A stretch of 64,000 nt of DNA from assembly GCF_024347615.1 (NCBI RefSeq), contig NZ_AP025509.1, positions 248,001 to 312,000 of the forward strand, given 5' to 3'. Both the position numbers and the translations under genes were made by a program. Shown here piece after piece: positions 17,878-31,569 of the stretch. The notes beneath the pieces were generated by a model that saw only the letters and a program-made list of their open reading frames with translations, was not told the DNA's origin and did no database searches. The stretch is from Vibrio splendidus (GTDB lineage Bacteria; Pseudomonadota; Gammaproteobacteria; Enterobacterales; Vibrionaceae). Numbering within the stretch: the first letter of the stretch is position 1; the number at the start of each line of letters is the position of its first letter.

Positions 17878-18049
17878 AAGTTAAGTTTCTATCTTGGCTA
17901 AGTTCGATTTTGTTCAGCGTTGATATTTTTTATTTCATTAAGTTGTTGTTTTTAAACGATAATATTTCAATTCGGTCGACTGGTATTAAGTGGCGTGCTA
18001 TTTGCTTGGTTTGAGTTATTACAATTATGGATAATTGAGCGAGAAACGG

Positions 18050-20617
18050 ATGACCGATTCAAACAGCGGCTGGATAAAATCAACCTGTGCTTATTGTGGT
18101 GTAGGGTGTGGAATAGAAGCGAGACCGACATCGCTAGGGAAACTAGAAGTGCGTGGTGATAAAGATCATCCATCAAACTATGGAAAGCTATGTACTAAAG
18201 GGGGTGCGCTTGGTGATACTGTCACGCCTTTAGGACGCCTAACACAGCCTGCTCATATTCAGAATGAGCAAAAACAAGAGCTGGATTGGAACAGTGCCAC
18301 TCAGTTGGTTGCAGACAAATTCAATCAAACGATCGAAGAATTTGGGGCCGATTCGGTTGCGTTCTATGTTTCTGGTCAGCTGCTTACCGAAGACTATTAC
18401 GTTGCCAATAAACTGATGAAAGGCTTCATCGGCAGTGGCAACATCGACAGTAACTCTAGGCTGTGTATGGCTTCAACCGTGGTCGGGCATAAGCGTGCAT
18501 TTGGTGCAGACACAGTTCCTGTCTGTTATGAAGATCTCGAGCAAGCCGATCTCGTCGTGATTACAGGCTCAAACCTCGCTTGGTGTCACCCTGTGCTATT
18601 CCAAAGGTTAAGAGCCGCCAAACAAGCCAACCCCGCATTAAAAGTGATCGTCATCGACCCTCGTTATACCGACACTTGTGAAATTGCAGATATCCACTTG
18701 GCATTGGAATCCGGTTCAGATGTCGCACTGTTCAATGGTTTGTTAGCCTACTTAGATGACAACGACCAGCTAGATGCTGACTACATTGAACACCACACCC
18801 AAGGTTTTACGGAAGCCATTCGATCCGCAACTCATTACCGTTATACCGAGTCAGGCTGGGGCGATAAAAGTGTTCCTGAGCTCACAGGGTTAACAGAGCA
18901 GCAGCTGAAACAGTTCTACAGTTTGTTTGCATCGAATGAGAAGGTGCTGACCATTTACTCCCAAGGTGTGAACCAATCGACACAAGGGTGTGACAAGGTG
19001 AATGCCATTATTAACTGCCATTTAGCCACCGGAAAAATCGGTAAGCCGGGCATGGGGCCATTCTCTGTAACGGGTCAGCCGAACGCAATGGGCGGGCGAG
19101 AGGTGGGCGGTTTAGCCAATACTTTAGCAGCGCACTTTGAATTTGGTGATCCGCAATCACACCAAACCGTCAGCGAGTTCTGGCAAACCGACAGCTTAGC
19201 CACACATGCGGGTTTAAAAGCGATTGACCTGTTTGATGCCATGAATGAAGGCAAAATCAAAGCGGTGTGGATCATGGCAACTAACCCAGTCGTGAGCCTA
19301 CCTGACAGTGAGAAAATTAAAGCGGCATTAGAGAAGTGCCCATTTGTGGTGGTGTCTGATTGTATTGCCGATACTGAGACCACTCGCTTGGCTGATGTGG
19401 TGTTGCCCGCGCAAGGGTGGAGTGAGAAGTCGGGTACTGTGACCAACTCGGAGCGCCGAATCTCACGTCAACGCCGCGTGTTGCCAAGCCCAGGGGAAGC
19501 CAAACCCGATTGGTGGATATTAAAAGAAGTCGCACAAAAAATGGGATTCAAAGAGCAATTCGAGTTCCGCCACGAAGGTGAGATCTTCAAAGAATATTGC
19601 GAGATGACAGCGCTCGGCAATGAAACAGGCAAAGCCCGTGACTTATGCTTAATTGGACTCACGCAACTGGATGAGAAAGGCTATGGCGAACTCACTCCAC
19701 AGCAATGGCCAGTATTAGAGTATCAACCAGAGATCATTGAGCAGCGCATGTTCACCAATGGCGAGTTCTTTACAGAATCGGGTAAAGCACAGTTTATTGC
19801 AGTTGAGCACGATAAACCGATTGCCGATACCAGCCTGGAATTCCCGCTTATCATGAACACAGGTCGAATCCGAGACCAATGGCACACCATGAGCCGAACG
19901 GGCTTGGCCGCAGGCTTGGGTGAACACACCCCAGAACCGTTTGTTGCCATGCACCCAGATACGGTTTCAGAACTGAACTTGGATGAGTTCGGGCTAGATT
20001 CGTTCAACCGCACGACTATTAATCCAGTGGTGAAAGTGCGCAGCGCACAAGGCGAGTGCCAAGCGCGCTTAGTGGTGACCAAAGAGATGCGCCGCGAACA
20101 AGTCTTCATGCCTATCCACTGGAACGCACCCACCGCCAAAGACAGTAAACCGTGTGACTTGATCTTGCCTCATACCGATGCTGCATCTGGTCAGCCAGAA
20201 TTCAAACACACACCTGTTGTGGTAGAGCTGTGTGGCTATCGCAGTGAAGCCGCACTGGTCAGTGACAAGGTGATGGATTGCAGCGGTTTTGATTACTGGG
20301 TACGCCAAAGAGTAGAGGGCGGTTTTCTGTATCGCATCTCATCATCCAAGAACCCAATGGAGCTGGTGATTCAGCTTGCCAACACCCTCGATGCATTACC
20401 AGAACCTAACGCGGAGGCGATCAAATCACTCCATTACCACGGCAATAAATCATTCAAGAACTATGGTTCAGCCAAGCTGGGTCAGTCCGGTGTAAAGCAA
20501 GCCTTCGTGGTGAACAGTAAGCTCGACCATCAAAGCATCGACTGGCTGGTGGAGTGCCTAACTCGAGAAGCCGATGAAGAGTTCGAAGCCGAGTTTTTGA
20601 GTACCATGGCAAAGTAG
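18050..20617 (+). CDS. nasA: Assimilatory nitrate reductase catalytic subunit
   Basis: This cytoplasmic molybdopterin enzyme of about 855 residues reduces nitrate to nitrite. The N-terminal 4Fe-4S motif is CAYCGVGC (C13, C16, C20) with a fourth cysteine in KLCTKGG near residue 48. Molybdopterin-binding signatures include GSNLAWCHPV, GQPNAMGGREVGG and ATNPVVSLPDS. I prefer ATG 18050; a TTG 15 bp upstream is possible. Unlike Klebsiella NasA, I see no C-terminal [2Fe-2S] cysteine cluster. It is divergent from nirBD, which consumes its nitrite. A strong terminator follows. Confidence 0.93.
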   Translation: MTDSNSGWIKSTCAYCGVGCGIEARPTSLGKLEVRGDKDHPSNYGKLCTKGGALGDTVTPLGRLTQPAHIQNEQKQELDWNSATQLVADKFNQTIEEFGADSVAFYVSGQLLTEDYYVANKLMKGFIGSGNIDSNSRLCMASTVVGHKRAFGADTVPVCYEDLEQADLVVITGSNLAWCHPVLFQRLRAAKQANPALKVIVIDPRYTDTCEIADIHLALESGSDVALFNGLLAYLDDNDQLDADYIEHHTQGFTEAIRSATHYRYTESGWGDKSVPELTGLTEQQLKQFYSLFASNEKVLTIYSQGVNQSTQGCDKVNAIINCHLATGKIGKPGMGPFSVTGQPNAMGGREVGGLANTLAAHFEFGDPQSHQTVSEFWQTDSLATHAGLKAIDLFDAMNEGKIKAVWIMATNPVVSLPDSEKIKAALEKCPFVVVSDCIADTETTRLADVVLPAQGWSEKSGTVTNSERRISRQRRVLPSPGEAKPDWWILKEVAQKMGFKEQFEFRHEGEIFKEYCEMTALGNETGKARDLCLIGLTQLDEKGYGELTPQQWPVLEYQPEIIEQRMFTNGEFFTESGKAQFIAVEHDKPIADTSLEFPLIMNTGRIRDQWHTMSRTGLAAGLGEHTPEPFVAMHPDTVSELNLDEFGLDSFNRTTINPVVKVRSAQGECQARLVVTKEMRREQVFMPIHWNAPTAKDSKPCDLILPHTDAASGQPEFKHTPVVVELCGYRSEAALVSDKVMDCSGFDYWVRQRVEGGFLYRISSSKNPMELVIQLANTLDALPEPNAEAIKSLHYHGNKSFKNYGSAKLGQSGVKQAFVVNSKLDHQSIDWLVECLTREADEEFEAEFLSTMAK

Positions 20618-20652
20618 CCGACTACCTCTAACCTATTAATACCCAAAGTTAA

Positions 20653-20684
20653 GCGCCGACAATTACGTCGGCGTTTTTATTTTT
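20653..20684 (+). terminator. Intrinsic terminator of nasA
   Basis: GCGCCGAC-AATTAC-GTCGGCGT forms a tight GC-rich stem 36 bp after the nasA stop. It is followed by TTTTATTTTT, a classical T-run. Confidence 0.85.
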
Positions 20685-20777
20685 AAGTATGCGACACTGA
20701 TTGATTAAACGACAAGTTTCACATATCATCTCACTAGCTGGTATGTCGTTCTGTAATTTTCAGGTAGAGGTAAGTTG

Positions 20778-20861
20778 ATGTCTAAGTTAGCCAACGCAAG
20801 AAAACCGGTCTTGTATCATACGCTGGCGAATTCAGCGCTGCTTAGGAGTGACCATGTATAA
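20778..20861 (+). CDS. Possible 27-aa leader peptide ORF
   Basis: ATG 20778 follows AGAGGTAAGTTG and the frame reads MSKLANARKPVLYHTLANSA before ending at TAA 20859-20861, overlapping the start of the next small gene by 8 bp in another frame. Overlap and ribosome site suggest translational coupling. Alternatively the two were once one gene and are now split by a frameshift. Family unknown. Confidence 0.35.
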   Translation: MSKLANARKPVLYHTLANSALLRSDHV

Positions 20862-20970
20862 CCAAGGCGACCTCTGCCCACACTGCGGCTTAATCATCAT
20901 GCTCCCTACAGATATTGAACCCAAATGCCTAGGTTGTGGCGAAGAAATCAACGAGCAAGATGACGACTAA
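20854..20970 (+). CDS. Small zinc-ribbon protein, 38 aa
   Basis: ATG 20854 is preceded by TTAGGAGTGACC, a good ribosome site. The peptide has two knuckles, CPHC (residues 8-11) and CLGC (25-28), spaced to bind one zinc, followed by an acidic tail (EEINEQDDD). It may be one of the small CPxCG-type zinc-finger proteins common in gamma-proteobacteria, whose roles are unknown. It lies just outside the integron cassettes. Confidence 0.65.
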   Translation: MYNQGDLCPHCGLIIMLPTDIEPKCLGCGEEINEQDDD

Positions 20971-21111
20971 ATCACACATTGGTTCACTTTCTACATTTTG
21001 CAGAGACTATATGGAATTTTTCTGCTTTTCGTCATGTTTAATATAGGCGTAAGCAGGTAAGGTTCTGTTATTAAATGAGTTATTAGACAGAGCCTGAACG
21101 GTTTAGATTAC

Positions 21112-21156
21112 TAGACAGAATTGTTTCAGCGACAAAATGCAGAATTATTCTGTCTA
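21112..21156. repeat. Inverted repeat at the left edge of the cassette cluster
   Basis: TAGACAGAAT (21112-21121) and ATTCTGTCTA (21147-21156) are a perfect 10-bp inverted pair. Related copies lie at 21083-21091 (TTAGACAGA) and 21063-21072 (TTCTGTTATT, inverted). The cluster of four ends 9 bp before the first cassette boundary (G21165/TTATAC). It could be a relic attI or a binding site; no known attI is recognised. Confidence 0.4.
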
Positions 21157-21186
21157 ATATAGCTGTTATACATAAGAGGTTATTTG

Positions 21187-21966
21187 GTGGAATATAGTCA
21201 CGAAGAATATGGGAAAGTACTTCAAGTAGTCGGTGAAAAAATTGATAAGTATGCGATACCGATTTTTATAGTCGATCAATCGAAAAGACCAGAAATAGTA
21301 GGTACAGGCTTTTTTATTAATTATATTGATTGTATTTATTTTGTAACAGCTTCGCATGTTATGGATGAACTCAATGATGCTGGATCTTTATTAAAAATAG
21401 CCTTAGGTGGCGCTATTTTTTCATTGGAACTTATAGGGTTAAAAAGAACAATATCTACTGAAAAAGGTATCGCAGATAATCATTTTGATATAGCGGTTTT
21501 GCCTATCAGTAAAGATCATGGATTATATTCACGCTGTTTACAGCAAGCAATTCCTATATATTCTAGTATGTTAGATAAAAAGTTTCTCACTGTAGATATG
21601 CAAATATTACAAGGGTTTCCAGTATCAAAAAATAAGACTACAAGTCGATTTAATCGAGTGACTAATGATTATAGTAGTGCTTTGTGGACGTATTCATTTA
21701 TGTTCGATGACTGTTGCGATTTTGAGTCTTTAGGTAAAAGTCCAGATTATCATTATGCAGTTAAATGGTTAGGTAAAGTTAATGGTCAAAAAATACCGAA
21801 TCCTAGAGGTTGTAGTGGCGGTCCGTATTGGTTTGTACCTGATATTGAAAATGTAGATAATCAAATCTTAGCTGGAGTGTTTATTGAATATTGGAGTAAA
21901 CATTCAGTAGCTTTTGTTACAAAAATCGAGCATGTGGTTAAATTGATCGAATGCGATTATGTATAA
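21187..21966 (+). CDS. Trypsin-like serine protease domain protein (cassette 1)
   Basis: A 259-residue protein with a complete chymotrypsin-fold triad: H57 in FVTASHVMD, D101 in FDIAVLPIS and S210 in GCSGGPYW. There is no signal peptide or membrane helix, so it is probably cytoplasmic, unlike most DegP-type proteases, and it has no PDZ domain. GTG 21187 is 7 bp after AGAGG; TTG 21184 is the alternative. It is markedly AT-rich. Stand-alone trypsin-like modules serve as effectors in several bacterial immune systems, but nothing here proves that role. Its attC is of a different family from the rest. Confidence 0.75.
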   Translation: MEYSHEEYGKVLQVVGEKIDKYAIPIFIVDQSKRPEIVGTGFFINYIDCIYFVTASHVMDELNDAGSLLKIALGGAIFSLELIGLKRTISTEKGIADNHFDIAVLPISKDHGLYSRCLQQAIPIYSSMLDKKFLTVDMQILQGFPVSKNKTTSRFNRVTNDYSSALWTYSFMFDDCCDFESLGKSPDYHYAVKWLGKVNGQKIPNPRGCSGGPYWFVPDIENVDNQILAGVFIEYWSKHSVAFVTKIEHVVKLIECDYV

Positions 21967-22085
21967 CAATCGCATCAACACGATTTGCTACATTCGGCAT
22001 TGTCGGTTTCTTTAAGTTTACCGTGTTAAGTGGTAAATTTGAGCTTAATCTGCATGGTAGCAAACGTGTTATGCAGGCGTTATGA
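21961..22085 (+). repeat. attC 1, non-VCR type
   Basis: GTATAAC (left core, overlapping the stop codon) and GGCG/TTATG (right core, cut after G22079) enclose arms ACACGATTTGCTAC and GTAGCAAACGTGT, which pair with one extra base, as attC hairpins do. The sequence is otherwise unrelated to the other attC sites, pointing to a cassette of separate origin. Confidence 0.75.
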
Positions 22086-22123
22086 CTCACACAATATTTC
22101 TGGTTAGGCAGTCTAGGAAAATC

Positions 22124-22627
22124 ATGGGATTTAAATTTCGTAAACGTATAAAAATTGCACCAGGACTTCATGTCAATCTTAGCAAAAGTGGTATTAGTAC
22201 CTCTATCGGCAAGCCCGGTGCTACCGTAAATATTGGTAAAAAGGGTGTGAAAGCAACAGTCGGAATTCCAGGCTCTGGGCTTTCATATAGTCAGAATTTA
22301 TCCGAGAATAACAGTTTTAAGGAGAGCAACTCACAAACCGAAAATGGAGGTTTCTTCTTCGGTAAGGTGTTAGCCGTTATTGTTACATTCTTCTTTGCGG
22401 TGAATTTTTTTAGTTCCCCCTCGGAACCTGCTGTATCTGTGAGTACGGTAGAGGCTAAAAGTTTACGTGTGCGTGCAGAGGCAACCCTAAACTCAAAGGT
22501 TATTAACCAATTAGTAGCTGGTGATGAGGTTGTGGTCTTGAAAACTAATAGTAGTTGGGCATTAGTAGAAGGCAATGGTGTAAAAGGCTGGGTTGCTTCA
22601 GAGTACCTATCAAGTCCTAAGTCATAA
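22124..22627 (+). CDS. DUF4236 and SH3-domain membrane protein (cassette 2)
   Basis: The N-terminal segment (about 1-55) is a DUF4236 module: FRKRIKIAPGLHVNLSKSG, then GATVNIGKKGVKATVG. A linker, a transmembrane helix (about 78-100) and a C-terminal bacterial SH3 domain (about 105-165, LRVRAEATLNSKVI and WALVEGNGVKGWV) follow. SH3b domains commonly bind peptidoglycan or peptides. The frame is open to 22082, but that ATG lies in the attC core; ATG 22124 begins the domain exactly. The stop codon is part of the next attC. Function unknown; 167 residues. Confidence 0.8.
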   Translation: MGFKFRKRIKIAPGLHVNLSKSGISTSIGKPGATVNIGKKGVKATVGIPGSGLSYSQNLSENNSFKESNSQTENGGFFFGKVLAVIVTFFFAVNFFSSPSEPAVSVSTVEAKSLRVRAEATLNSKVINQLVAGDEVVVLKTNSSWALVEGNGVKGWVASEYLSSPKS

Positions 22628-22747
22628 CAAGCTGTTTAAGAGTGATTCGCAACGCGTGGCATTTTTAGTATGCGTTGGTTTAAGTGATTAAGGTGGTCTG
22701 CTGCGGCATCGGTATTGCGTTGCTCACACCTCAACAGGGCGTTATGA
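22622..22747 (+). repeat. attC 2, VCR-like
   Basis: The left core ATAACAAGC with AAGAGTGATTCGCAACGCG and the right part TTGCGTTGCTCACACC... ending AGGGCG/TTATG (cut after G22741) match the array's standard attC. GCAACGCG pairs with TGCGTTGC across the hairpin. It appears intact. Confidence 0.85.
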
Positions 22748-22835
22748 GTCTTGGTTTTATATTCAACATCGTTATTAAACTATCATGCTGATATGATGGT
22801 TTTTAATTAAATTCGTACGGAGCTATTTTTAGGTG

Positions 22836-24023
22836 ATGTTTAGGTTTTACTTTTTCATACTTTCGCTGATTTCGACGGGAGTTTTAGCTACCGAGGCTGA
22901 ACGCTCATACATTAATCACAGTACAGCACTTTTCAATGAAGTACAGCTTATAAAAAGTGACGTTGAACGACTTAAATTAAATAATGGAAATTTAGTGATT
23001 AAATCAGGGGTAGACTCTGAACTGGCAAGAAAAGTAATTAGGCTTGAGCTCATGCTCGATGATTTAGAAAGCCAAATTTACGAAAATGGGTCAACAACAG
23101 AACTTTCAGTAATTAAAGAGAATTTATTTAGTCGAATCGACTCTTCGGATGAAAGTATCGCTAATTGGGGTGTAATTTTTGGACTCTTGGGGACTGGTTG
23201 GGGAGTTCTAATTACTTTGATAACCATCTATATAGGGTATTTAAACAATAAAAAAGCGGATGATGTTGTTCGGCTATGTACAGAACAAGTTGACCACTGG
23301 ATTGAATTTAACGCTCCCAGAATTTTAAAAGATGGCTCTGAAAGTTACATTGAAGAAATTAAGAAAATGAGAGATGAAGCTGAAAGGTACTTATTGTATT
23401 ATCAGCAAGACCATAATGAAGGGCGTAAAGCTAGTGAATATAATCTCAAGGACGAATTTACTGACCCTGTAAGTGAAAGGGTTAATGAAGTCATCAAGTT
23501 TTATCAACAACAAGATTTTGCAGAAGCAATTTTGAAAGCAAAGTTTATCCTAGATGGAACCGTAACCATTAGAGATAAAATCGAGCTGCTTCAGATAGTA
23601 TCATATGCCTACAATGCTATAGGCAGGCCTGATTTAGCTGACGAGTATAATGTGGAGCTGTTAAGAGTCATTAATAATTCATCTCAAACTATCTCTGCGT
23701 TCAATCGTGCGAATATCTTGTTTAAGATTTCAATGAACAAATACTCAATGAATCGAAAGTCATACACACCTGAAGTTTTGCGACATTTGAATGACTTAAT
23801 CTCGGAGTTCCTAAATTATACAGATATTAGAATTGTTCGAATAGTAGCTCAAGCAAGGATGTTGAAAGCTATAATTAACGAAAATTCGGGATACTACGCA
23901 TCCGCAAAAGATCAATATAAAGAGATTATTACATCTTACCAAAACAGAAATGATGAAGAATTGTCAGAGGTTGTTGAGAAGTGTCGTAGCAACCTTCGTG
24001 ATTTGAACGAGTCAGACTCATAA
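22836..24023 (+). CDS. Signal-peptide, coiled-coil, membrane protein (cassette 3)
   Basis: This 395-residue protein is of unrecognised family. It shows a signal peptide (MFRFYFFILSLISTGVLA, cleavage near 18), a periplasmic helical/coiled-coil region (20-108), one transmembrane helix (about 111-135, GVIFGLLGTGWGVLITLITI), and a long cytoplasmic helical domain. The pattern from about 210 to 390, pairs of amphipathic helices with Y/A/L positions, resembles TPR repeats (QDFAEAILKAKFILDG, YASAKDQYKEIITSY). ATG 22836 is preferred over GTG 22833. The stop overlaps the following attC. A scaffold or sensor role is plausible only as inference. Confidence 0.65.
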   Translation: MFRFYFFILSLISTGVLATEAERSYINHSTALFNEVQLIKSDVERLKLNNGNLVIKSGVDSELARKVIRLELMLDDLESQIYENGSTTELSVIKENLFSRIDSSDESIANWGVIFGLLGTGWGVLITLITIYIGYLNNKKADDVVRLCTEQVDHWIEFNAPRILKDGSESYIEEIKKMRDEAERYLLYYQQDHNEGRKASEYNLKDEFTDPVSERVNEVIKFYQQQDFAEAILKAKFILDGTVTIRDKIELLQIVSYAYNAIGRPDLADEYNVELLRVINNSSQTISAFNRANILFKISMNKYSMNRKSYTPEVLRHLNDLISEFLNYTDIRIVRIVAQARMLKAIINENSGYYASAKDQYKEIITSYQNRNDEELSEVVEKCRSNLRDLNESDS

Positions 24024-24252
24024 CAAGCATTTAAGAGTGATTCGCAACGCTTGGCGCTTTCGCTTTCGCTTCGCGCTTCGCGCTTTCGCTTCGCGCTTCG
24101 CGCTTTCGCTTTCGCTTCGCGCTTCGCGCTTTCGCTTCGCGCTTCGCGCTTCGCGCTTTCGCTTTCGCTTCGCGCTTCGCGCTTTCGCTTCGCGCTTCGC
24201 GCTTTCGCTTCGCTCAAGTATAGCCAAGCGCTGCTCACACCTTAATGCGGCT
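24018..24252 (+). repeat. attC 3, left part, loop-expanded and split by an IS
   Basis: The left arm CATAACAAGC...GATTCGCAACGCTTGGC and right arm GCCAAGCGCTGCTCACACC pair well, so this is a real attC. The apical region between them is filled by about 165 bp of simple repeat (24053-24217), and the right core is cut after GCGGC by an IS1111-type element. The rest of the core (CGTTCGG) is at 25611-25617. Confidence 0.8.
24053..24217. repeat. GCGCTTTCGCTTC low-complexity repeat inside attC 3
   Basis: About 165 bp composed only of interleaved CGCTTT, CGCTTC and GCGCTTCG units, of mixed 6- to 9-bp period. All frames stay open and give Arg/Phe/Ala/Ser-rich translations on both strands, but nothing suggests these are genes. 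It occupies exactly the terminal loop of the attC hairpin. Confidence 0.9.
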
Positions 24253-24266
24253 ACATGGATTCCCCC

Positions 24267-24516
24267 GGTTGTCAAACATCCGCTAAACTTATGTTGATGG
24301 GTTTTGGACTGCCGCTCTACATTCGGCCTACTTATCGACGATTCGCATACGTCGTGGCCCTGATGACTTGCGCGACTGCGGTGCCTTATTCGTTAGATGA
24401 CATCTAGTGTGTCCGCCGCATTAACAGGCTCTCCGCAAGTGGTCTTAACCTATCTCCATCATTAGCGTCTGCAATGACCCGGTGGGTTTAACTCTTTATG
24501 CTGCTTAGTTTTTTAC
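24267..24516 (-). ncRNA. Candidate guide RNA (seekRNA/bridge RNA) region of IS1111 element 1
   Basis: This 250-bp segment downstream of the transposase has no gene. It contains CTCTACATTC (24315-24324) and TTATTCGTTAG (24386-24396), 72 bp apart, resembling the left (GGC/TACATGG) and right (TCATT/CGTTAG-type) insertion junctions. A second IS1111 element has the same two segments at the same relative places. IS110/IS1111 elements encode an RNA whose loops pair with target and donor; this layout fits. Exact RNA ends are not visible. Confidence 0.55.
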
Positions 24517-25542
24517 TTAAGCAGCATAGTTTTCGTATTCTGTTTGATTGTGTAAAAGCGACCATATAATTCGTGCGTTCTTCGCGGCAAGTGCCACTAT
24601 CGCTCGGTTCATTCCTCTTCGTTCTAGAACGCCTCGACACCACTGACTTAACTTATCTTGCTTGTCGCCAAGGTTGGCAATTACGGTCCTTGCGCCATGA
24701 ACTAATAGTGTTCGTAAGTATTTATCGCCATGTTTGGTTATCCGACCTAAGCGTGGCTTTCCTCCCGTCGAATATTGTTTTGGTACGAGTCCTAGCCAAG
24801 CAGAGAAATCACGGCTTTTATCAAATTGAGAGCCGTTACCTATCGAAGCAAGTATCGCAGTAGCGGTTTGCGGTCCAATGCCCCGAACTTTCATCACTCG
24901 TTGAACATTAGTGCTGACCTTAGCAAAAGAATCGAAGACTTGTTCAGTATCGGCGATACGTTGATTCAATTCACCAAGGTGGCGATAAGCATCGGCAATC
25001 ACTGTTCTCGCGAGGTGTGGTAGTTCATTTTCTGCGTCTTCCAGCATTAAGGGAACCTGTTTCATTAATGAAGAGCGGCCAACAGGAATGGTTAACCCGA
25101 ACTCAGAAAGTAGGGCACGCATGCGATTCATAAGCGCGGTGCGCTCACGAACCCAATGCTCTCTCATTCTATGTACCGATAAGATGGCTTGTTGCTCGGG
25201 GGATTTTACAGGCACAAAGCGAGTAGATGGTCGCTGAACAGCTTCGCAGATAGCAACAGCATCATTAAGGTCGTTCTTTCCCTTAGTTCGATAAGGAATT
25301 ACGTATTTAACAGCCATAATGCGGGCGTCGTGCCCGAGTTTATTGAGTGTTCTTGCCCAATAATGTGCACCACCACACGCTTCAACGCCTATACGCATGA
25401 GTGGCATATTTGCTATTGTAGTCAGTAGTTTAGAGCGAGTTACCGACTTATGAAGTATGACCTTACCATTTTGGTCTACGGCATGAAGACTAAAGTGGTT
25501 TTTAGCTAGGTCGATACCGCAGAAATAAGAATAATCAGACAT
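24517..25542 (-). CDS. IS110/IS1111-family transposase
   Basis: A 341-residue DEDD transposase. The RuvC-like N-terminal half starts FCGIDLAKNHFSLH (first catalytic Asp) and includes MRIGVEACGGAHYWAR and GKNDLNDAVAICEA. The C-terminal transposase_20 half has the HhH-like MKVRGIGPQTATAILASIG and the serine-containing FSAWLGLVPKQYSTGGK. ATG 25542 follows CGGAGGCACC; the longer frame adds nine residues. It appears complete and is the likely source of mobility for both elements here. Confidence 0.92.
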   Translation of the reverse strand: MSDYSYFCGIDLAKNHFSLHAVDQNGKVILHKSVTRSKLLTTIANMPLMRIGVEACGGAHYWARTLNKLGHDARIMAVKYVIPYRTKGKNDLNDAVAICEAVQRPSTRFVPVKSPEQQAILSVHRMREHWVRERTALMNRMRALLSEFGLTIPVGRSSLMKQVPLMLEDAENELPHLARTVIADAYRHLGELNQRIADTEQVFDSFAKVSTNVQRVMKVRGIGPQTATAILASIGNGSQFDKSRDFSAWLGLVPKQYSTGGKPRLGRITKHGDKYLRTLLVHGARTVIANLGDKQDKLSQWCRGVLERRGMNRAIVALAAKNARIIWSLLHNQTEYENYAA

Positions 25543-25610
25543 GGTGCCTCCGATGCATTTAAGTACCACATAAGTGTGGCAGATCCTCGGTAGGGGGAAT
25601 CCATGTCATT

Positions 25611-25617
25611 CGTTCGG
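25611..25617 (+). repeat. attC 3, right-core remnant
   Basis: CGTTCGG directly after the IS is the displaced end of the attC right core; the recombination cut would fall after G25612. It departs from the GTTRRRY consensus at the fourth position. Confidence 0.6.
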
Positions 25618-25646
25618 AAACGTAATCGAGAAGAGAGGAAAGTTGA

Positions 25647-26831
25647 TTGAAAAAGATTTTATCATTTGTGGTTGCTGTATGTTTGGTTGGTACTCTTTAC
25701 TCGCTGACTCAAGATGGTTTGACGAATCGTGAAGTAACACTCTTTAGCTCAGCGCTTGCGTTGCTATCTATGGCCATATCTTGGTTAATCACCGATATAT
25801 ATTCTGAAAGTAGTAAGCAGAGTGCTTTGGAAGACGCGAAGAAATTCCATACAGAAAATATTAAAACCTATGTCGTAAATGCCTCTGAAAAAGTAAACAA
25901 TATTTCCAACGAGCTAGATAGACTTTCAATTTGGTTGAAGCAAATCAATCAAGATTATGCTGACAGTGATCTACATGAAGTAATTGTAATGCGTGAACGT
26001 GTTGCTAGTGCAACACATTTAATTGAGACGTTAAAATCAGTGAATGATACTACTGTCAACGACTGGCGTGGTATTATTGATGGCGAAATTAAGACCTATC
26101 GCGAAAAGGAAGAGATAGAGAAACAAAAACAAATAGACGGTTTGTTATTACGTATAAAGAATTTAGAAGCTTTAGATGCGCAAGGTGAGGAGTCCTTTGA
26201 GTCTGTAATCAATGCACGTAAAGACCTAGATGAACTATTATCTGATCAAGGAATCGTCTTAAATCAAAAGAAAAAAATACAACATGTAACAAGAAAGTGC
26301 CCCAATTGTTCAACAACTGTTGGTTATGACCAACACACTAGGAATGATAACTTTAGACAGATCCGCTGTAATAAAATCAGTTGTAACTCAATACTAATTT
26401 CGAAATATAGTGAACGTGACAAGAACTTTGAAGTAATAGTTCCAGACACCCATGAAGAGCAGGTGGAGTGTTTTAATTGTGGCTCTTCGTATAATTTTGA
26501 ATTGCCGATATATGAAAATGCATATGCAAGAGAAAAGTGTGATTGTTCAAATCTCATATCTATCAAGTATCGGGATGGAGAGTTCAAGATTTCGCAGTCT
26601 CACCCCTCACAAACCCAGCCTAAAGAAATTACTGAAGAGTTCTTAAAACAAGTTTTGGCTGCACTTCCCTCTCAGCCATGGGAAAAGGAAGTACATAAGC
26701 AAGTAGCTCAAGATCTAAATGAGACAAATAGTATGGTTCAAAAAGCGATTAAGCAGCTAATTAAACGTGGCGATTTGTATGATCAGGTGGATGGTAAGCT
26801 TTATGAATATCGCGAGGTGAATGCTTCCTAA
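25647..26831 (+). CDS. Two-helix membrane protein with zinc ribbons and winged helix (cassette 4)
   Basis: This 394-residue protein is of unrecognised family with an unusual architecture. Two N-terminal transmembrane helices (about 4-20 and 31-51) are followed by a long coiled coil (55-210). Two zinc ribbons come next: C218/C221/C241/C246 and C275/C278/C298/C300. A C-terminal winged-helix-like domain (about 330-390, VAQDLNETNSMVQKAIKQLI then LYDQVDGKLYEY) ends it. The start is TTG 25647, 8 bp after AGAGGAA. The stop is part of attC 4. Short two-helix membrane modules recur in bacterial defence and stress sensors. A membrane-tethered nucleic-acid-binding sensor is a reasonable guess, not a demonstrated role. 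Confidence 0.7.
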   Translation: MKKILSFVVAVCLVGTLYSLTQDGLTNREVTLFSSALALLSMAISWLITDIYSESSKQSALEDAKKFHTENIKTYVVNASEKVNNISNELDRLSIWLKQINQDYADSDLHEVIVMRERVASATHLIETLKSVNDTTVNDWRGIIDGEIKTYREKEEIEKQKQIDGLLLRIKNLEALDAQGEESFESVINARKDLDELLSDQGIVLNQKKKIQHVTRKCPNCSTTVGYDQHTRNDNFRQIRCNKISCNSILISKYSERDKNFEVIVPDTHEEQVECFNCGSSYNFELPIYENAYAREKCDCSNLISIKYRDGEFKISQSHPSQTQPKEITEEFLKQVLAALPSQPWEKEVHKQVAQDLNETNSMVQKAIKQLIKRGDLYDQVDGKLYEYREVNAS

Positions 26832-26953
26832 CAAACTGTTCAAGCGTGATTCGCAACGCGTGGCATTTTCACTATGCGTTGGTTTTAGTGGTTTTAGTGG
26901 TTATGGTGTTATGCGGAGAATTCAGTATTGCGTGCCTAACACCTTAACAAGGC
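26826..26953 (+). repeat. attC 4, left part, split by an IS
   Basis: CTAACAAAC with CAAGCGTGATTCGCAACGCG on the left and CACCTTAACAAGGC on the right identify a VCR-like attC. The right core is interrupted after GGC at 26953; CGTTAGG resumes at 28285. The cut point equals that in attC 3. Confidence 0.82.
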
Positions 26954-26968
26954 TACATGGTCTCCCTC

Positions 26969-27179
26969 TTTTGTCAACAATAGCTCCCGCTGACAACAGT
27001 GGATCGGACAGCAGCTCTACATTCTGTGTTTAATCGGAATCGTTCCGTCACCTTGATGATATTCGCTTGATGCCAGCCTCATTCGTTAAACAGTATTTAT
27101 TACTTCCCAATTAAACAGGTTTAGGCATCTCGGTCTGGTCGTATTGTCACCATTTGCTATTGCTTTGACTCGGTGAGTG
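26969..27179 (-). ncRNA. Candidate guide RNA region of IS1111 element 2
   Basis: This 211-bp noncoding end of the element contains CTCTACATTC (27015-27024) and CTCATTCGTTAAA (27078-27090), 64 bp apart. They correspond to the element's left junction (GGC/TACATGG) and right junction (TCATT/CGTTAG). Between them a CCTTGATGA-type segment is shared with element 1. Conservation of only these blocks between two diverged elements supports a functional RNA. Confidence 0.5.
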
Positions 27180-28208
27180 TTAACCGTTTACATAGTTAAT
27201 CTTGTACTCTTTTCCTGTTGTTAATAATGCCCATATTATACGAGCGTTTTTTGCTGCTAGGGCGACAGCTGCTCGTTTATAACCTCGGCGTTCAACGAGT
27301 AGATTTCACCAAATACTGTTGCGATCGGTTTTCTCTTTACATCGTGCAATAACGGCTCTTGCGCCATGAATAAGTAGAGTGCGAATGTGTTTTTCGCCTC
27401 TTTTGCTGATGCGACCAAGATGAACATGACCACCTGTTGAGTATTGTCTTGGAACCAACCCTATCCAAGCGGCAAATTGGCGGCTAGATCCAAATTGTTT
27501 GGCGTCATTGACGGTCGCGACAATGGCACTTGCACTGTGTTCACCGACACCTGGAATATCCATGAGGGCTTTGGCTGAAGCCATCTCACGAACTAAAGCA
27601 GAGACTCTACGATCATAGTGCAATACTTCTAGGTTAAGGTGTTGAATCTTGTTCGATAGATCTTGAAGTAGCTCTCGAGCGAGTATAGGCAAACCATTTT
27701 CTGCATCTTCAAGGACGCTACCAATGGTGTTTTGAGCCGAGTAGCGACCCTGAGGCATCACAATACCAAATTCGGAAAGCAAACCTCTGAGTTGGTTAAT
27801 AGTCGCCGTTCTTGTTTTAATTAGCCCCTGTCGAATACGGTGTAGGCAAAGCACAGCTTGTTGCTCTTCACTTTTTATAGAGACAAATCGTGTTTTGGGT
27901 CTAGATACCGCTTCACAGATGGCCTCTGCGTCATTGGCATCGTTCTTCTCATTTTGTCGATATGGAATAACGAATTTGGACGCCATAATTTTCGGGTTAT
28001 GACCTAGTTTCAGTAGCTCTCTCGCCCAGTGGTGTGCACCAGAGCACGCCTCCATACCGATGAGGCAGGGCGGTAACTTCGCGAATGTGTCTAAGAGTTT
28101 GTTTCTTTTGACAGTTTTGCGTAGGACGCACTTGCCATATGCATCAACGCCGTGAATACTGAACACATTCTTGGCGAGGTCAACGCCAATAGTTTTAATG
28201 GTGGACAT
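27180..28208 (-). pseudogene. IS1111-family transposase with internal stop
   Basis: ATG 28208 follows GGAGGTTACT and opens MSTIKTIGVDLAKNVFSIHG, a RuvC-like DEDD transposase. An in-frame TGA at codon 301 (27306-27308, after RNSIW) cuts it short. The same frame continues for 41 further residues (NLLVERRGYKRAAVALAAKN and on) to TAA at 27180, matching the C-terminus of the intact paralogue in this window. This is a single nonsense mutation rather than a frameshift. Catalytic motifs upstream of the stop are intact, so partial function cannot be excluded. Confidence 0.88.
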
Positions 28209-28284
28209 AGTAACCTCCAGTTCTTCAGCGTGTACTAAGTAAGTATGGCACGCAGAGTGTCAGGTAGAGGGAGTCCATATCATT

Positions 28285-28291
28285 CGTTAGG
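28285..28291 (+). repeat. attC 4, right-core remnant
   Basis: CGTTAGG after the second IS completes the attC right core; the cut is after G28286. GTTAGGT fits the GTTRRRY consensus exactly. Confidence 0.7.
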
Positions 28292-28317
28292 TAGCTAAGG
28301 AGTTTTAAGTAGAGCAT

Positions 28318-28719
28318 ATGAAACCAAGTATAAGTGATGTATTAAAAGCTCTTCAGGATAGTTGGTCTTTAGAAAGCACTGAGGAACCAGAAAACTGGAC
28401 TCAATCTAATCCAAGTCGTGGGCAATGTGGAATATCTGCGCTAATAATTAACGACTATTTTGGCGGAAAGCTAGTTCTATGGAAGGTATTTTTGGGTGAA
28501 GATCAAGTTGGCTTTCATTACTCAAACGAGTTACCCGATGGCACGCTATTTGATTCAACTGGCGATCAATTCTGGGAAAGTGAAGAGCTAAAAGAACCTT
28601 CTTCGTTTGAAAGACCAGATAAACTACCAAAAAATGGAGCTGACCGGTATTTGGACTTATCAAATTTGGTTCGTAGTAAATTGGAAAGTTATCGGGTAGG
28701 AGCGGAAGTCTCTACCTAA
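28318..28719 (+). CDS. YunG-like protein (cassette 5)
   Basis: A 133-residue soluble protein resembling Bacillus YunG-type proteins: SWSLEST, then SNPSRGQCGISALIINDYFG and a WKVFLGEDQVGFHYSNEL stretch. The Q-C motif followed by H in GFHYSNEL and D in FDSTGDQF suggests a papain/transglutaminase-like fold. This is my inference; no activity is known. ATG 28318 follows AAGGAG at a distance of about 14 bp. The stop codon lies in a collapsed attC, so this cassette is now fused to the toxin-antitoxin cassette. Confidence 0.65.
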   Translation: MKPSISDVLKALQDSWSLESTEEPENWTQSNPSRGQCGISALIINDYFGGKLVLWKVFLGEDQVGFHYSNELPDGTLFDSTGDQFWESEELKEPSSFERPDKLPKNGADRYLDLSNLVRSKLESYRVGAEVST

Positions 28720-28732
28720 CGCGGCGTTATAC
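28714..28732 (+). repeat. Collapsed attC 5
   Basis: ACCTAAC, the left core, is followed within two bases by GGCG/TTATAC, the right core, with none of the usual 100 bp of hairpin between. This is what deletion of an attC interior would leave. It should be unable to recombine. Confidence 0.65.
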
Positions 28733-28737
28733 CGCAA

Positions 28738-29028
28738 TCAATCATCTAACCTTTTCATAGCTTTACGGTAAACATCGCTACGTTCGCGTTTCCCGACTGC
28801 TAAGACGGTTACAATGATGACATCGTCTTCAACTTTGTAGACGAGACGGTAGCCCGATTGGCGCAGCTTAATCTTATACATGTTGTCAGATCCAGAGAGT
28901 TTTGAAGCCGGAACATGCGGGTTATCTAAGCGCTCGATTAGCTTTTTCTTAAATTGTTGTTGAAGCGTTGAGCCAAGCTTTTTCCACTCTTTGAGTGCAC
29001 TCTTTTTAAAGTCGAGTTTATAGGTCAT
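28738..29028 (-). CDS. RelE/ParE-family toxin
   Basis: This toxin of about 96 residues has the RelE fold: YKLDFKKSALKEWKKLG at the start, PASKLSGSDNMYKIKLR, then SGYRLVYKVEDDVIIVTVLA and GKRERSDVY at the end. Members cleave mRNA at the ribosome or inhibit gyrase; the lysine/arginine-rich pattern resembles RelE. It overlaps the antitoxin by 11 bp and is opposite in direction to the rest of the array. Toxin-antitoxin cassettes are known to stabilise large Vibrio integrons. The start is ATG 29028; a TTG lies 3 bp upstream. Confidence 0.88.
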   Translation of the reverse strand: MTYKLDFKKSALKEWKKLGSTLQQQFKKKLIERLDNPHVPASKLSGSDNMYKIKLRQSGYRLVYKVEDDVIIVTVLAVGKRERSDVYRKAMKRLDD

Positions 29029-29266
29029 CAATATTTACCGAAATGCTCTCTTCAGATTCACGCTCTTTCGCAATAGTTAGTAGTTCAAGGTCTTCGAGTC
29101 TATCCATCATCATTTCGTACGCTTCGGCTGGTACGCAATAAAATGCTGGCTCATTTCGGTTCAGTACAGCAACAGGTTCACCGTAAGCACTAGTTGCAAC
29201 TTTCATAGGGTTAGCTTTCAACTCAGTAATGCTTGCAGCAACATCGGCTAAAATTCTAGTGGTCAT
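29018..29266 (-). CDS. Phd/YefM-family antitoxin
   Basis: An 82-residue antitoxin. The N-terminal half (ILADVAASITELKANPMKV, then GEPVAVLNRNEPAFYCVPAE) is the Phd/YefM DNA-binding fold. The acidic C-terminal tail (EESISVNIDDL) should wrap the toxin. It is first in the pair and read from its own promoter at 29301-29329, which it probably autorepresses. Pairing a Phd-type antitoxin with a RelE-type toxin is common. Confidence 0.85.
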   Translation of the reverse strand: MTTRILADVAASITELKANPMKVATSAYGEPVAVLNRNEPAFYCVPAEAYEMMMDRLEDLELLTIAKERESEESISVNIDDL

Positions 29267-29300
29267 GTAATAGGTCTCTTAAGTGGTCTTTGTTTCGGTC

Positions 29301-29329
29301 ATTTTAGCCTCAACCAAGCGGTATAACAA
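29301..29329 (-). promoter_or_regulatory. Promoter of the toxin-antitoxin pair, inside the attC edge
   Basis: On the minus strand TTGTTA (29324-29329) and TAAAAT (29301-29306) are separated by 17 bp. The -35 hexamer is supplied by the left core of attC 6. The TTGTTA within a conserved attC core could give any inverted cassette a -35 element. Confidence 0.45.
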
Positions 29330-29446
29330 GTTGCTTAAGAGTGATTCGCAACGCGTGGCATTTTTACTATGCGTTGGTTTATGTGTTTAAGGTATTATGC
29401 GGAGGCTAAGGTATTGCTTTGCTCACACCTTAGCAAGGCGTTATAG
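29321..29446 (+). repeat. attC 6, VCR-like
   Basis: GTATAACAAG with AAGAGTGATTCGCAACGCG on the left and TTGCTCACACCTTAGC... AAGGCG/TTATAG on the right (cut after G29440) mark an intact standard attC. Confidence 0.85.
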
Positions 29447-29467
29447 AGACTCAAAAGGAAACTATAC

Positions 29468-29971
29468 ATGGAACTAGTAGGAAGGTTATTGGGTTATGAA
29501 TTTTTTGTACCTTTTTTAGTAACATGCGCGATCTATGGCGTACTCTTTGCCTTGGTATATTTTATTTATAAAACAGTACGTTCATTTATTGTTAAGTCCT
29601 ATATCTCACATAGCTTGAAGCCAGAAACCAATTATAAAATTCAAAAGATTATTGCTATAACAAAAAGCATCAATGTTCCTGGTGAATTACCGGATAACTA
29701 CCAATCTTTATGGAATTCAATATACAAGAATAAAAACAACTATGAGAGTATGAAGAGCTCTATTGGTTTTTTTGAATTAGCAATGTGTAACTATAAAAAA
29801 TCAGATACAGATTCAGCTGACTTACTAGAAATCATCGATTTACTTGATAACTTTAAAGAGCAAGCACTTCGTCAGAGTAAGTATTTTTATGAGACTTGTG
29901 AAGCTATAAATATTTCGCTTTCATATGTTTTGGTTTCAAAGCACTTTCTGGTGTCAAGTGATTCGCTATAA
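29468..29971 (+). CDS. Membrane protein of unknown function (cassette 7)
   Basis: A 167-residue AT-rich gene product with one strong N-terminal transmembrane helix (about 14-38, VPFLVTCAIYGVLFALVYFI) and a charged, mostly helical cytoplasmic part (40-167) containing SLKPETNYKIQKIIAITKS. No family is recognised. ATG 29468 follows AAAGGAAACTATAC. Its stop codon is part of the next attC, the usual cassette arrangement. Confidence 0.6.
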   Translation: MELVGRLLGYEFFVPFLVTCAIYGVLFALVYFIYKTVRSFIVKSYISHSLKPETNYKIQKIIAITKSINVPGELPDNYQSLWNSIYKNKNNYESMKSSIGFFELAMCNYKKSDTDSADLLEIIDLLDNFKEQALRQSKYFYETCEAINISLSYVLVSKHFLVSSDSL

Positions 29972-30092
29972 CAAGCATTGAAGAGTGATTCCCAACGCTT
30001 AGCATTTTCAGTTTAAGCTTGGGTTTTGTGTTTACGGCGCATTGGTTTAGGTTAGGTGGTAGCGTCGTTCGCACCTAAATTGGTATTTATAC
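29965..30092 (+). repeat. attC 7, degenerate
   Basis: CTATAACAAGC and AAGAGTGATTCCCAACGCTT mark the left half. The right half has drifted: GTCGTTCGCACC and finally TATTTATAC in place of GGCGTTATAC, so the G at the exchange point is lost. Recombination here should be impaired. Confidence 0.6.
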
Positions 30093-30106
30093 GTTTTGGG
30101 GAACTA

Positions 30107-30802
30107 ATGATTCAGAGTATTTATGACGAGATGTGGCAAAGGTTTGAGCTAGCATCAGCTCACAACGATTATGAGCTAGACTCGCATCTATTAGATATTG
30201 CTAGTGATACCCGAAGGGGGATTACAGCTTTGGCATATTTAAAGCAGGGTAATCGTTCTGTTCTTGATGAAATCATGAGCTTTCAGAAAGCAGTATGTGA
30301 AATAGAACCCAACCAATACTACCATCCGCTTGAAGAACTGCACCTAACCGTTCTGTCGGTAATTTCATGCGTACCAGAGTTTGAACTCAGCGAAATCAAT
30401 ATTCATTCTTATATCGAAATATTTCGTTCAGTCTTGAGTTCAAATCAACAGATAGAAATAAAATATCAAGGTGTTAGTGCGTCCCCCAATTGCATTCTAC
30501 TGCAAGGTTTTCCAGTCAGTGATTCTTTGGAACAGTTTAGAAATGAACTTAGAACTCAATTAAGCGAAGCGGGGTTAAGGGTAACTTTTGACAGCCGTTA
30601 TAAGTTGGTTACAGCGCACAGTTCATTAATTCGGTTCAGAGTCCCAATTAGTGATAGTCGGCAGCTTTTTAGGTTGTGTCAGCAGTATCGAAATTATGAT
30701 TTCGGTAGCATCGTACTGAAAGACTTTGAACTGGTGTTTAACAACTGGTATCAAAACTTGGTAGTAACGAAGTCTTTGGCTAGAGGTTCTTTGTTAGACT
30801 AA
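30107..30802 (+). CDS. 2H-phosphoesterase-like protein (cassette 8)
   Basis: A 231-residue soluble protein. Two H-x-T/S motifs, the mark of the 2H (LigT-like) superfamily, are visible: H79-L-T in LEELHLTVLSV and H171-S-S in LVTAHSSLIRF, about 90 residues apart with alternating strands and helices between. Members cleave cyclic nucleotides or 2',5'-linked RNA, including 2',3'-cyclic phosphates. ATG 30107 follows TGGGGAACTA; the GTG at 30056 lies in the attC and is rejected. The substrate is unknown, and a defence or counter-defence role is speculation. Confidence 0.65.
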   Translation: MIQSIYDEMWQRFELASAHNDYELDSHLLDIASDTRRGITALAYLKQGNRSVLDEIMSFQKAVCEIEPNQYYHPLEELHLTVLSVISCVPEFELSEINIHSYIEIFRSVLSSNQQIEIKYQGVSASPNCILLQGFPVSDSLEQFRNELRTQLSEAGLRVTFDSRYKLVTAHSSLIRFRVPISDSRQLFRLCQQYRNYDFGSIVLKDFELVFNNWYQNLVVTKSLARGSLLD

Positions 30803-30808
30803 ACGCGC

Positions 30809-30829
30809 TTATAACAAGTACCTAAGAGT
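30809..30829 (+). repeat. attC 8, truncated
   Basis: TTATAACAAGTACCTAAGAG resembles the left end of the standard attC (TAACAAGC...TAAGAGTGATTC), but no right half follows. This looks like the broken right border of the cluster. Confidence 0.5.
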
Positions 30830-30946
30830 CAGCCTAAACCTCACATCATCAAATATCCAGTGCACGATTTCAAAAAAAACAAACAACTAAATCAGAAACC
30901 CCAGCACTTGGCACTTTATGCCAGTCTTGGGTTTGTTGTTTTGTTG

Positions 30947-30973
30947 AAAGGGCGCCAATAACAGGCGCCCTTT
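30947..30973. terminator. Terminator between the cassette cluster and doxX
   Basis: AAAGGGCGCC (30947-30956) pairs with GGCGCCCTTT (30964-30973) around a 7-base loop. The stem is GC-rich with A/T flanks on both sides, so it can stop transcripts from both directions. It ends 3 bp from the DoxX-family stop codon. Confidence 0.7.
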
Positions 30974-30976
30974 GTG

Positions 30977-31375
30977 TTAGTTGGCAACACTGTAAGTGTC
31001 GTAGTCGCGCAGTAAGAAGAGTGCGACACAAGCTGCGAGCATTGGCCAAGAGGCAAAGAACAGTAGGTTATTGAACGGGTCGATGTACTTAGCGAAAGAG
31101 GCGAAAGTAGAGCCCGCATGCAGGACCAAAACTGCGCCGTAGGTGTATTTTTTCCACATGCCAACCACGAATGCGCCTAAAAATCCGAGCTGCGCGACAC
31201 CCAGCGCCATCATCGCGTTGTCAGAGATGTCGATGCCATAAAAACCAGACAGTACTTTTGTCGCGTGTTCAGGGACAAGGATCTTATCTAAGCCCCAGAA
31301 CAAGAAGACGATAAAAATGCCGACTCTCAGCAGCAATAGGCTTGTCGCCAATTTGGTTTGAAGTGTCTTTTCCAT
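30977..31375 (-). CDS. DoxX-family membrane protein
   Basis: A 132-residue protein with four transmembrane helices (about 12-34, 50-70, 74-94, 105-124) and the DoxX-like LLRVGIFIVFLFWGLDKI near the start. DoxX proteins are small membrane proteins linked to quinone or redox stress; the exact role here is unknown. ATG 31375 follows AAGGAATATC, better than the ATG 18 bp upstream. It is the first gene outside the cassette cluster. Confidence 0.75.
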   Translation of the reverse strand: MEKTLQTKLATSLLLLRVGIFIVFLFWGLDKILVPEHATKVLSGFYGIDISDNAMMALGVAQLGFLGAFVVGMWKKYTYGAVLVLHAGSTFASFAKYIDPFNNLLFFASWPMLAACVALFLLRDYDTYSVAN

Positions 31376-31569
31376 GATATTCCTTTTGTGCATTCAAGAT
31401 GCGATGACGTTAAATGTTCATCAAAGGAGACCTATGGCTTTTGTGTTTTCTTTCGGGGTTTTTCAGTGACTTATGTAACAAGGAATGTCTGATTAATCTT
31501 TGTTTATATAATATGTCATTTTTTTGATGTGGTATCATTCGTGCAGTTGATTATTAATGGATATATAAC

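Follow-up and report, generated by a model that had tools for sequence, protein, structure and literature searches.

A cassette array behind nasA in Vibrio splendidus starts at an orphan attI and suggests an integron with several platforms

We analyzed a 64,000-nucleotide window from Vibrio splendidus (assembly GCF_024347615.1, contig NZ_AP025509.1, positions 248,001 to 312,000). The Vibrio genome comprises 5.88 Mb in two contigs, and the window is part of contig 2 (2.01 Mb); positions are those of the window unless stated otherwise. Between a nasA-type gene for an assimilatory nitrate reductase and a gene at 30977-31393, the window holds an array of gene cassettes with attC recombination sites, and this array starts at a homolog of the integron site attI, with no gene for the integron integrase (IntI) beside it. 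We suggest that it is one platform of a multi-platform integron, in which IntI serves several attI in trans, and that this strain has lost IntI, leaving the array to erode. We put the probability of this reading at roughly 0.75; it rests on sequence comparison, in particular on the attI homology and its breakpoint, the attC sites, the synteny, the lack of any IntI, and the further platforms that the genome carries.

The core of the orphan attI occupies 21111-21168 on the plus strand, and its homology to intI-linked attI places the predicted crossover at G21165/T21166. In several genomes, plain BLAST finds the core again next to intI (80-84% identity over ~60 bp, E 1e-10 to 3e-7). In 7/7 fetched intI loci, all chosen for having a core match, the distance between the starts of the core and of the IntI match is 162-163 bp, with the core on the far side. 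The leader (21000-21180, 181 bp) is matched at least partly in 35/196 Vibrio genomes, 30 with the long nasA-type form and five with the core only. When the 30 nasA-type leaders are aligned with 11 other sites, CTAGACAGAAT and GCAGAATTWTTCTGTCTAATATAGCTGTTA are common to them with few exceptions, and the spacer differs. The aligned leaders are related up to the R site and unrelated directly after GTTA. As IntI is described in part of one source to cut G/TTRRRY (PMC9892861), this breakpoint is, judged by sequence, the one expected of IntI. Exceptions are the degenerate leader of genome G189 and those of G145 and G146, which read GCTA, all three from genomes without IntI; outside the IntI-less group, 10 bp are deleted from the spacer of G193. 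The best conserved stretch of 30 columns corresponds to the R-site half, 21139-21168 (0.946 identity to this genome vs. 0.777 for the upstream part), and 21000-21110 is partly conserved. Two leaders are rearranged in other ways: in G122 (L181 11573-12086) the nasA-type leader is tandemly duplicated, with a first copy that stops before the crossover, and in G139 (L179 1-4994) the leader is preceded by an additional copy of the nasA 3' end.

A distal element of the leader lies at 21006-21031 (plus strand), 105 bp upstream of the core. Of 51 distinct attI, 47 have their best match to ACTATATAGAAAAATTCTGTATTTTG 102-106 bp before the core, 38 of them at exactly 105 bp, and in 40/51 the score exceeds that of every shuffle; the motif was picked from these same sites, many of them orthologous, so the scores are descriptive. 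By eye, the first half of the element looks similar to the core's left arm. The element is retained in intI-less platforms and thus is not simply the integrase promoter. In V. cholerae, the transcription start is reported to lie 65 bp ahead of the recombination point (PMC3948777); because the distal element lies ~160 bp before that point, it is unlikely to be the promoter Pc itself. An accessory IntI site or a part of a promoter are our guesses.

These features bear on the possibility that an IntI encoded elsewhere inserted cassettes off target, at an attG-like site after nasA, and that the resemblance to attI is accidental. Off-target insertion is one proposed origin (passages of PMC8618304) of clusters of attC sites lacking integron integrases (CALINs), and nine of the 35 attC listed in this genome do lie outside attI platforms. 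An attG is expected to have no attI homology at the insertion point, whereas here the core matches intI-linked attI with E values down to 1e-10, the distal element keeps a fixed spacing, and the leader occupies the same place in many species. We consider such an off-target origin highly improbable.

For the attC sites, the covariance-model search proposed by the initial annotation of this DNA was carried out. The model was built from 29 seed attC, two of them in the window (22625 and 29324), and it shows 88.3% of cells paired vs. 31-41% in slid versions, with 52 double-change cells vs. a mean of 16.3 in shuffles. We relied on covariation because folding of VCR-like (Vibrio cholerae repeat-like) attC alone barely beat shuffles; single-strand folding was rejected as a test, since three VCR-like attC alone gave z-scores of -0.63, -0.89, and -1.64. 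Scanning the whole window yields six attC between 21964 and 30090, all on the plus strand (21964-22083, 22625-22745, 24025-24106 as a partial match, 26829-26956, 29324-29444, and 29969-30090; E 3.5e-29 to 0.0024). At gathering scores the window is free of Rfam matches, and 20600-31500 has none at E<=1. With six clustered attC in ~8 kb and no integron integrase nearby by a whole-genome search, the array is a CALIN by current definitions. From a complete integron it lacks the intI gene, while it has an attI, by homology only, and an attC array in fixed orientation downstream.

The initial annotation had counted eight attC-bearing units, which is right if remnants are included: six found by the model, one collapsed, and one truncated. 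It had also described the sites as mostly VCR-like with a first one of another type, and indeed attC 1 (21964-22083, E 6.9e-9) scores 46.6 bits vs. 69-130 bits for the other four full-length sites of the window; its fold beats shuffles (z -4.26). VCR-like attC 2 (22625-22745) and attC 6 (29324-29444) are the two window seeds. In attC 3 (24020-24251), which the model matches only partially, the R' end is cut by an insertion sequence (IS A) and the loop is expanded by a 166-bp array of CGCTTCGCGCTTT-type tandem repeats (24048-24213), absent from the five related 92-bp attC compared. A second insertion sequence (IS B) cuts the R' end of attC 4 (26829-26953). In attC 7 (29969-30090, E 8.2e-18) the R' is degenerate (GTATTTA). 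By our reading of the sequence, a collapsed attC remnant follows the YunG gene at 28717-28730, and a truncated attC at 30810-30829 forms the right end of the array; all these sites are on the plus strand. The damage to the array thus comprises two insertion sequences and one collapsed, one truncated, one degenerate, and one loop-expanded attC.

No match above cut-off was obtained with the IntI model TIGR02249 in the whole two-contig genome, which extends the earlier observation that the window has no IntI-type integrase and rules out an intI hidden just outside it. Below the cut-off, only two frames match, of 317 and 311 aa, both without profile positions ~182-235; we read them as XerC and XerD from these features. 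Across the genus, 122/196 genomes have an IntI match over the cut-off.

The array occupies a recurrent place. Among the 30 loci with nasA-type leaders, nasA lies upstream of the leader in 25 (within 2.4 kb in 24), and a homolog of the 30977-31393 gene lies downstream in 19, four of the 30 loci ending at contig ends. The description of an integrase-less attC cluster between these two genes is thus confirmed. Its interpretation as a detached cluster, captured ectopically or stranded by rearrangement, is not: the array starts at an attI homolog that is found in the same place in related species, the platform is common to species with and without intI, and intI is likewise missing from the four further attI-headed groups that this genome has. 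No clean empty nasA site was found in relatives; the suggested search for one turned up only G120 and G075, whose nasA is 96% identical and whose leader and attC are absent from the 17 kb fetched, and in both other, partly IS-derived sequence follows nasA. Cassette content differs between nasA-type arrays: of the window cassette proteins, only a toxin-antitoxin pair was found in the others (tblastn E<=1e-8). When 19 genomes were compared in 171 pairs, the proximal 700 bp after attI (IS masked) gave no match (>=200 bp at >=75% identity), and the distal 700 bp of the array match in 4/171, which only weakly supports a polarity of turnover with an older distal end. By eye and uncounted, no trend was seen in the number of attC behind the nasA attI between intI-less and intI-bearing genomes, except for two intI-bearing genomes with long arrays.

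A sequence model was built from 33 attI; its seeds include two of the five sites of this genome, that of the window among them, and 17 of the 56 sites described below, while the attC are independent of it. It finds matches in 46/196 Vibrio genomes, 26 with an IntI match over the cut-off (some partial or stop-containing) and 20 without. This genome has five attI (E<=8.9e-11; the next best of 150 scored candidates has E 0.66). They head groups of 11, 5, 5, and 4 same-strand attC and, for the fifth, a single weak attC. Together the five platforms hold 26/35 attC listed genome-wide; the figure of 35 is a minimum, as scoring covered 150 of 1937 candidates and the list lacks the expanded attC 3. From the 46 genomes we picked 15 further ones for few contigs (14 in <=4, one in 5) and found 56 attI, 2-6 in each (E<=1e-5; opposite-strand duplicates merged by hand). 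At 49/56 of them attC lie within 8 kb downstream, and all 238/238 attC in the attI loci are downstream and on the same strand as attI, where 0.02 per locus would be expected at the density of this genome. In G026 and G136, with 147 and 131 attC at E<=1e-6 (150 candidates scored in each), the attC listed form three and four large groups, respectively, each headed by an attI and one beside intI. In the first 8 kb, the orphan arrays of these genomes hold 12-14 attC and the intI-linked array 12.

When the 56 attI were clustered by their upstream flanks (200-1700 bp), they fell into five intI-less address classes, with 13 (nasA, which we call address P1), 12, 8, 6, and 5 members, an intI class of 8, and 4 singletons. 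Judged by one representative each, the neighbor is an ABC-transporter permease gene for the class of 12, a MatE-type gene for the intI-less class of 8, and a maltose-acetyltransferase-like gene for the class of 6. All five orphan addresses recur between species; three attI of our genome fall in the classes of 13, 12, and 6, and two match no class. IntI at >=85% identity is present at 8/8 intI-class loci (one a fragment) and at 0/48 others.

One could propose instead that the platforms are degraded integrons, each of which formerly had its own intI beside attI and later lost it. CALINs have been proposed to be degraded integrons (part of PMC9024848), and near our C1:2200k attI and in L196 the stretch upstream of the core is common with intI-linked attI. 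Moreover, loss of intI is common. We built an rpoB tree of 34 of the 35 genomes with a leader or core match (G123 was left out), and 17 are labeled as without IntI, 4 as broken, and 13 as intact, scattered over the tree; supported branches force at least five changes of the "none" label. The labels are rough: the "broken" G071 has a second, intact IntI, G153 is possibly split by assembly, and 5/17 "none" genomes are drafts of 50-180 contigs. What argues against degradation is that no IntI remnant was found at 48/48 non-intI platforms of the 15 genomes, or upstream of 45/45 orphan entries in a second set (three sites entered twice; 27 with <=1.6 kb upstream). Furthermore, in none of the species examined is intI found at the five addresses, and many of the same genomes retain it elsewhere. 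We therefore regard separate losses at every platform as unlikely. As nasA-type leaders are present on both sides of the IntI-label changes, the platform predates the losses of intI. Two IntI fragments, L187 (G011 C1:1154531-1154904) and L188 (G185 C121:81200-81571), retain only profile positions 1-81/84 and 270/272-315 and, from this pattern, apparently share an internal deletion.

Alternatively, intI may have moved together with an attI and left platforms behind, or arrays may have been carried away from intI by rearrangement. Translocation of a whole Vibrio integron has been described (passages of PMC1382264). What unites the intI class is a flank that includes intI itself, and beyond intI its eight loci fall into four neighborhoods (three, three, one, and one genome), which raises the odds of this alternative a little and led us to reject a single fixed address for intI. 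The five orphan classes stay together, except for the nasA member G139 with its duplicated nasA 3' end; the G026 intI locus is linked to another class by a weak match of 70 residues. This pattern indicates that intI moved and the orphan addresses stayed. However, intI sits at none of the five orphan addresses in the 15 genomes, and we find this alternative quite unlikely. Even as an account of how platforms originated, it would be compatible with service of several attI in trans, which concerns how platforms are used.

Exchange of cassettes between platforms speaks for service in trans. In this genome, two attI on contig 1 are followed by one and the same first cassette, with 96.4% identity across the 558 bp after the crossover. 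The window's toxin-antitoxin cassette takes first place at the nasA attI of G165 and, in G071, at the attI next to the broken chromosome-1 intI, and it also has an inner position in the G071 nasA array (98-99%). In a search for shared cassettes (>=85%, >=300 bp), in which only known IS types were masked, so that some matches are perhaps not cassettes, platforms of one genome had cassettes in common in 5/16 genomes, with 80 matches in G026, 42 in G136, 2 in G174, 1 in G129, and 1 in this genome.

Based on these comparisons, we infer the following scenario. By homology, the stretch 21006-21168 is the leader of an attI that has no intI beside it. An IntI from a single locus elsewhere, which in relatives is an intI with its own attI, would insert circular cassettes into several attI; at the window attI, acted on in trans by an ancestral IntI, the circles would enter at G21165/T21166, and cassettes would accumulate between nasA and the 30977-31393 gene. 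The presumed loss of IntI in this strain would then have frozen the arrays, with no more turnover and with erosion. More broadly, the integron in this branch of Vibrio may be a distributed one, consisting of intI and two to six dispersed attI platforms on both chromosomes, several at conserved addresses and each with its own array and ~165-bp leader (distal element and core), so that cassettes could be loaded at several platforms simultaneously; this reading we hold to be somewhat better than an even bet.

Several observations weigh against service in trans by a single integrase. Recombination at an orphan attI is deduced from sequence comparison. Seven of the 56 attI have no attC within 8 kb, and the nine attC of this genome outside platforms indicate that other origins of attC clusters occur too. 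Shared cassettes are concentrated in two genomes, G026 and G136 (122/126 matches). Decay of attI after the loss of intI is not clear from the leaders: the R-site GTTA is altered in 3/15 leaders of IntI-less genomes vs. 0/15 of the others. "One integrase" is not strict either, as G071, G075, and G105 have a further IntI that is not beside this kind of attI. Finally, at 4/48 orphan loci another tyrosine recombinase (27-29% identity to IntI) lies downstream of attI.

The further IntI are of a second type (~390-396 bits), located at G071 C2:1307767, G075 C2:82580, and G105 C3:435523 and C10:1500167, with attI platforms in the same genomes. As to the recombinases downstream of attI, in G108 (L249 5973-7915, minus strand) the attI is closely followed by a gene for a 285-aa tyrosine recombinase and one for an IS91-type Y2 transposase, in G189 C46 a 290-aa recombinase lies within ~200 bp after attI, and in G165 C1 a recombinase is likewise found twice. 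Possibly these belong to an element that targets attI.

The two insertion sequences, missed by the initial annotation, sit inside the attC of cassettes 3 and 4, at the R' end. IS A spans 24252-25611 (transposase at 24517-25569) and IS B, listed as L025, spans 26954-28285 (transposase at 27306-28208), with both transposases on the minus strand and of the IS110/IS1111-type DEDD kind (PF01548 and PF02371). By target and anatomy as read from sequence, they belong to a known kind, the IS1111-attC group. Members such as ISKpn4 and ISPst6 target attC ends, and the window elements share with the group, as described in passages of PMC11187229, the DEDD transposase, inverted repeats near the ends, and insertion at one attC end. 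Complete copies in the window and fetched loci have GTT at the right in 30/30 and GGC at the left in 28/30; in the two without GGC (L105, L271), an apparent piece of another IS A copy lies at the left. These 30 complete copies, two of them in the window, are good material for comparing guide RNAs against one target. Loci with IS1111-attC elements include L022, L097, L101, and L104, the last with three in one array. On contig 1 of this genome (G000), two lone attC (C1:1682903-1683022 and C1:2774237-2774356) lie on opposite strands with equal scores of 103.0 bits, and the stretch fetched around the former includes an IS A copy.

To the left of the array, the nasA-type gene (18035-20617, plus strand) has NCBIfam relatives NasC/NasA below cut-offs. 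A small open reading frame (ORF) of 38 aa with cysteine pairs (20854-20970, plus strand) precedes the attI leader, and the DNA around it accompanies the leader in L180-L182. The cassette ORFs, all on the plus strand, encode a 260-aa protein that is weakly trypsin-like (cassette 1, 21184-21966; E 0.035, below cut-off), a protein with DUF4236 and an SH3_3 domain (cassette 2, 22082-22627), proteins of 396 aa (cassette 3, 22833-24023) and 394 aa (cassette 4, 25647-26831), a YunG family protein (cassette 5, 28318-28719; E 2e-30), a 167-aa protein (cassette 6, 29468-29971), and a 231-aa protein weakly like RNA 2',3'-cyclic phosphodiesterase (cassette 7, 30107-30802; E 0.0085, below cut-off). The toxin-antitoxin cassette (28738-29266) lies on the minus strand, with a ParE/RelE-type gene at 28738-29031 and a Phd/YefM-type gene at 29018-29266. 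Four cassette proteins (3, 4, 6, and 7) have no family above curated cut-offs, in line with the earlier remark that several belong to no recognized family. A PADLOC scan of the seven cassette proteins gave two marginal matches, both to that of cassette 4. To the right, the minus-strand gene at 30977-31393 had been labeled DoxX, a label that is not supported: Pfam gives no match for it at E<=0.001, and NCBIfam none above cut-off. Its closest named relatives are in V. lentus (97%) and V. splendidus (90-95%).

The recurring docking sites suggest that many addresses can be loaded by one integrase. Provided that orphan attI are real targets, Vibrio would not be restricted to one locus for the capture of cassettes, cassette expression could be set by several leaders, and database CALINs would need re-examination with attI models. 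Should the distributed arrangement hold, many CALINs would be live platforms, missed because attI was not searched for. The same platform with and without integrase in related species also offers a natural experiment.

Among known systems, the array resembles the Vibrio sedentary chromosomal integron (intIA, attI, Pc, and VCR array) in its homologous attI, its VCR-like attC, its cassettes oriented away from attI, and its toxin-antitoxin cassette, but differs from it in having no intI beside attI or in the genome, and in the several attI per genome. Integrons typically have one attI, close to the integrase, and IntegronFinder does not detect attI outside class 1, according to passages of PMC9024848. 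A search for attC and IntI would label the window array a CALIN, and the explanations given for CALINs in part of PMC8618304 are off-target insertion, loss of intI, or rearrangement. Among the matches listed, as titles and abstract openings, we found no orphan attI in Vibrio, nor attI heading arrays at several conserved addresses; subscription papers, the 2009 V. splendidus genome paper among them, lie outside this set. Similar in layout are the Xanthomonas CALINs at lamG and secF (PMC12444791), also integrase-less and at conserved loci away from intI; the available passages of that report mention no attI at these loci, in contrast to the window array, which, unlike a plain CALIN, has both an attI and a conserved address.

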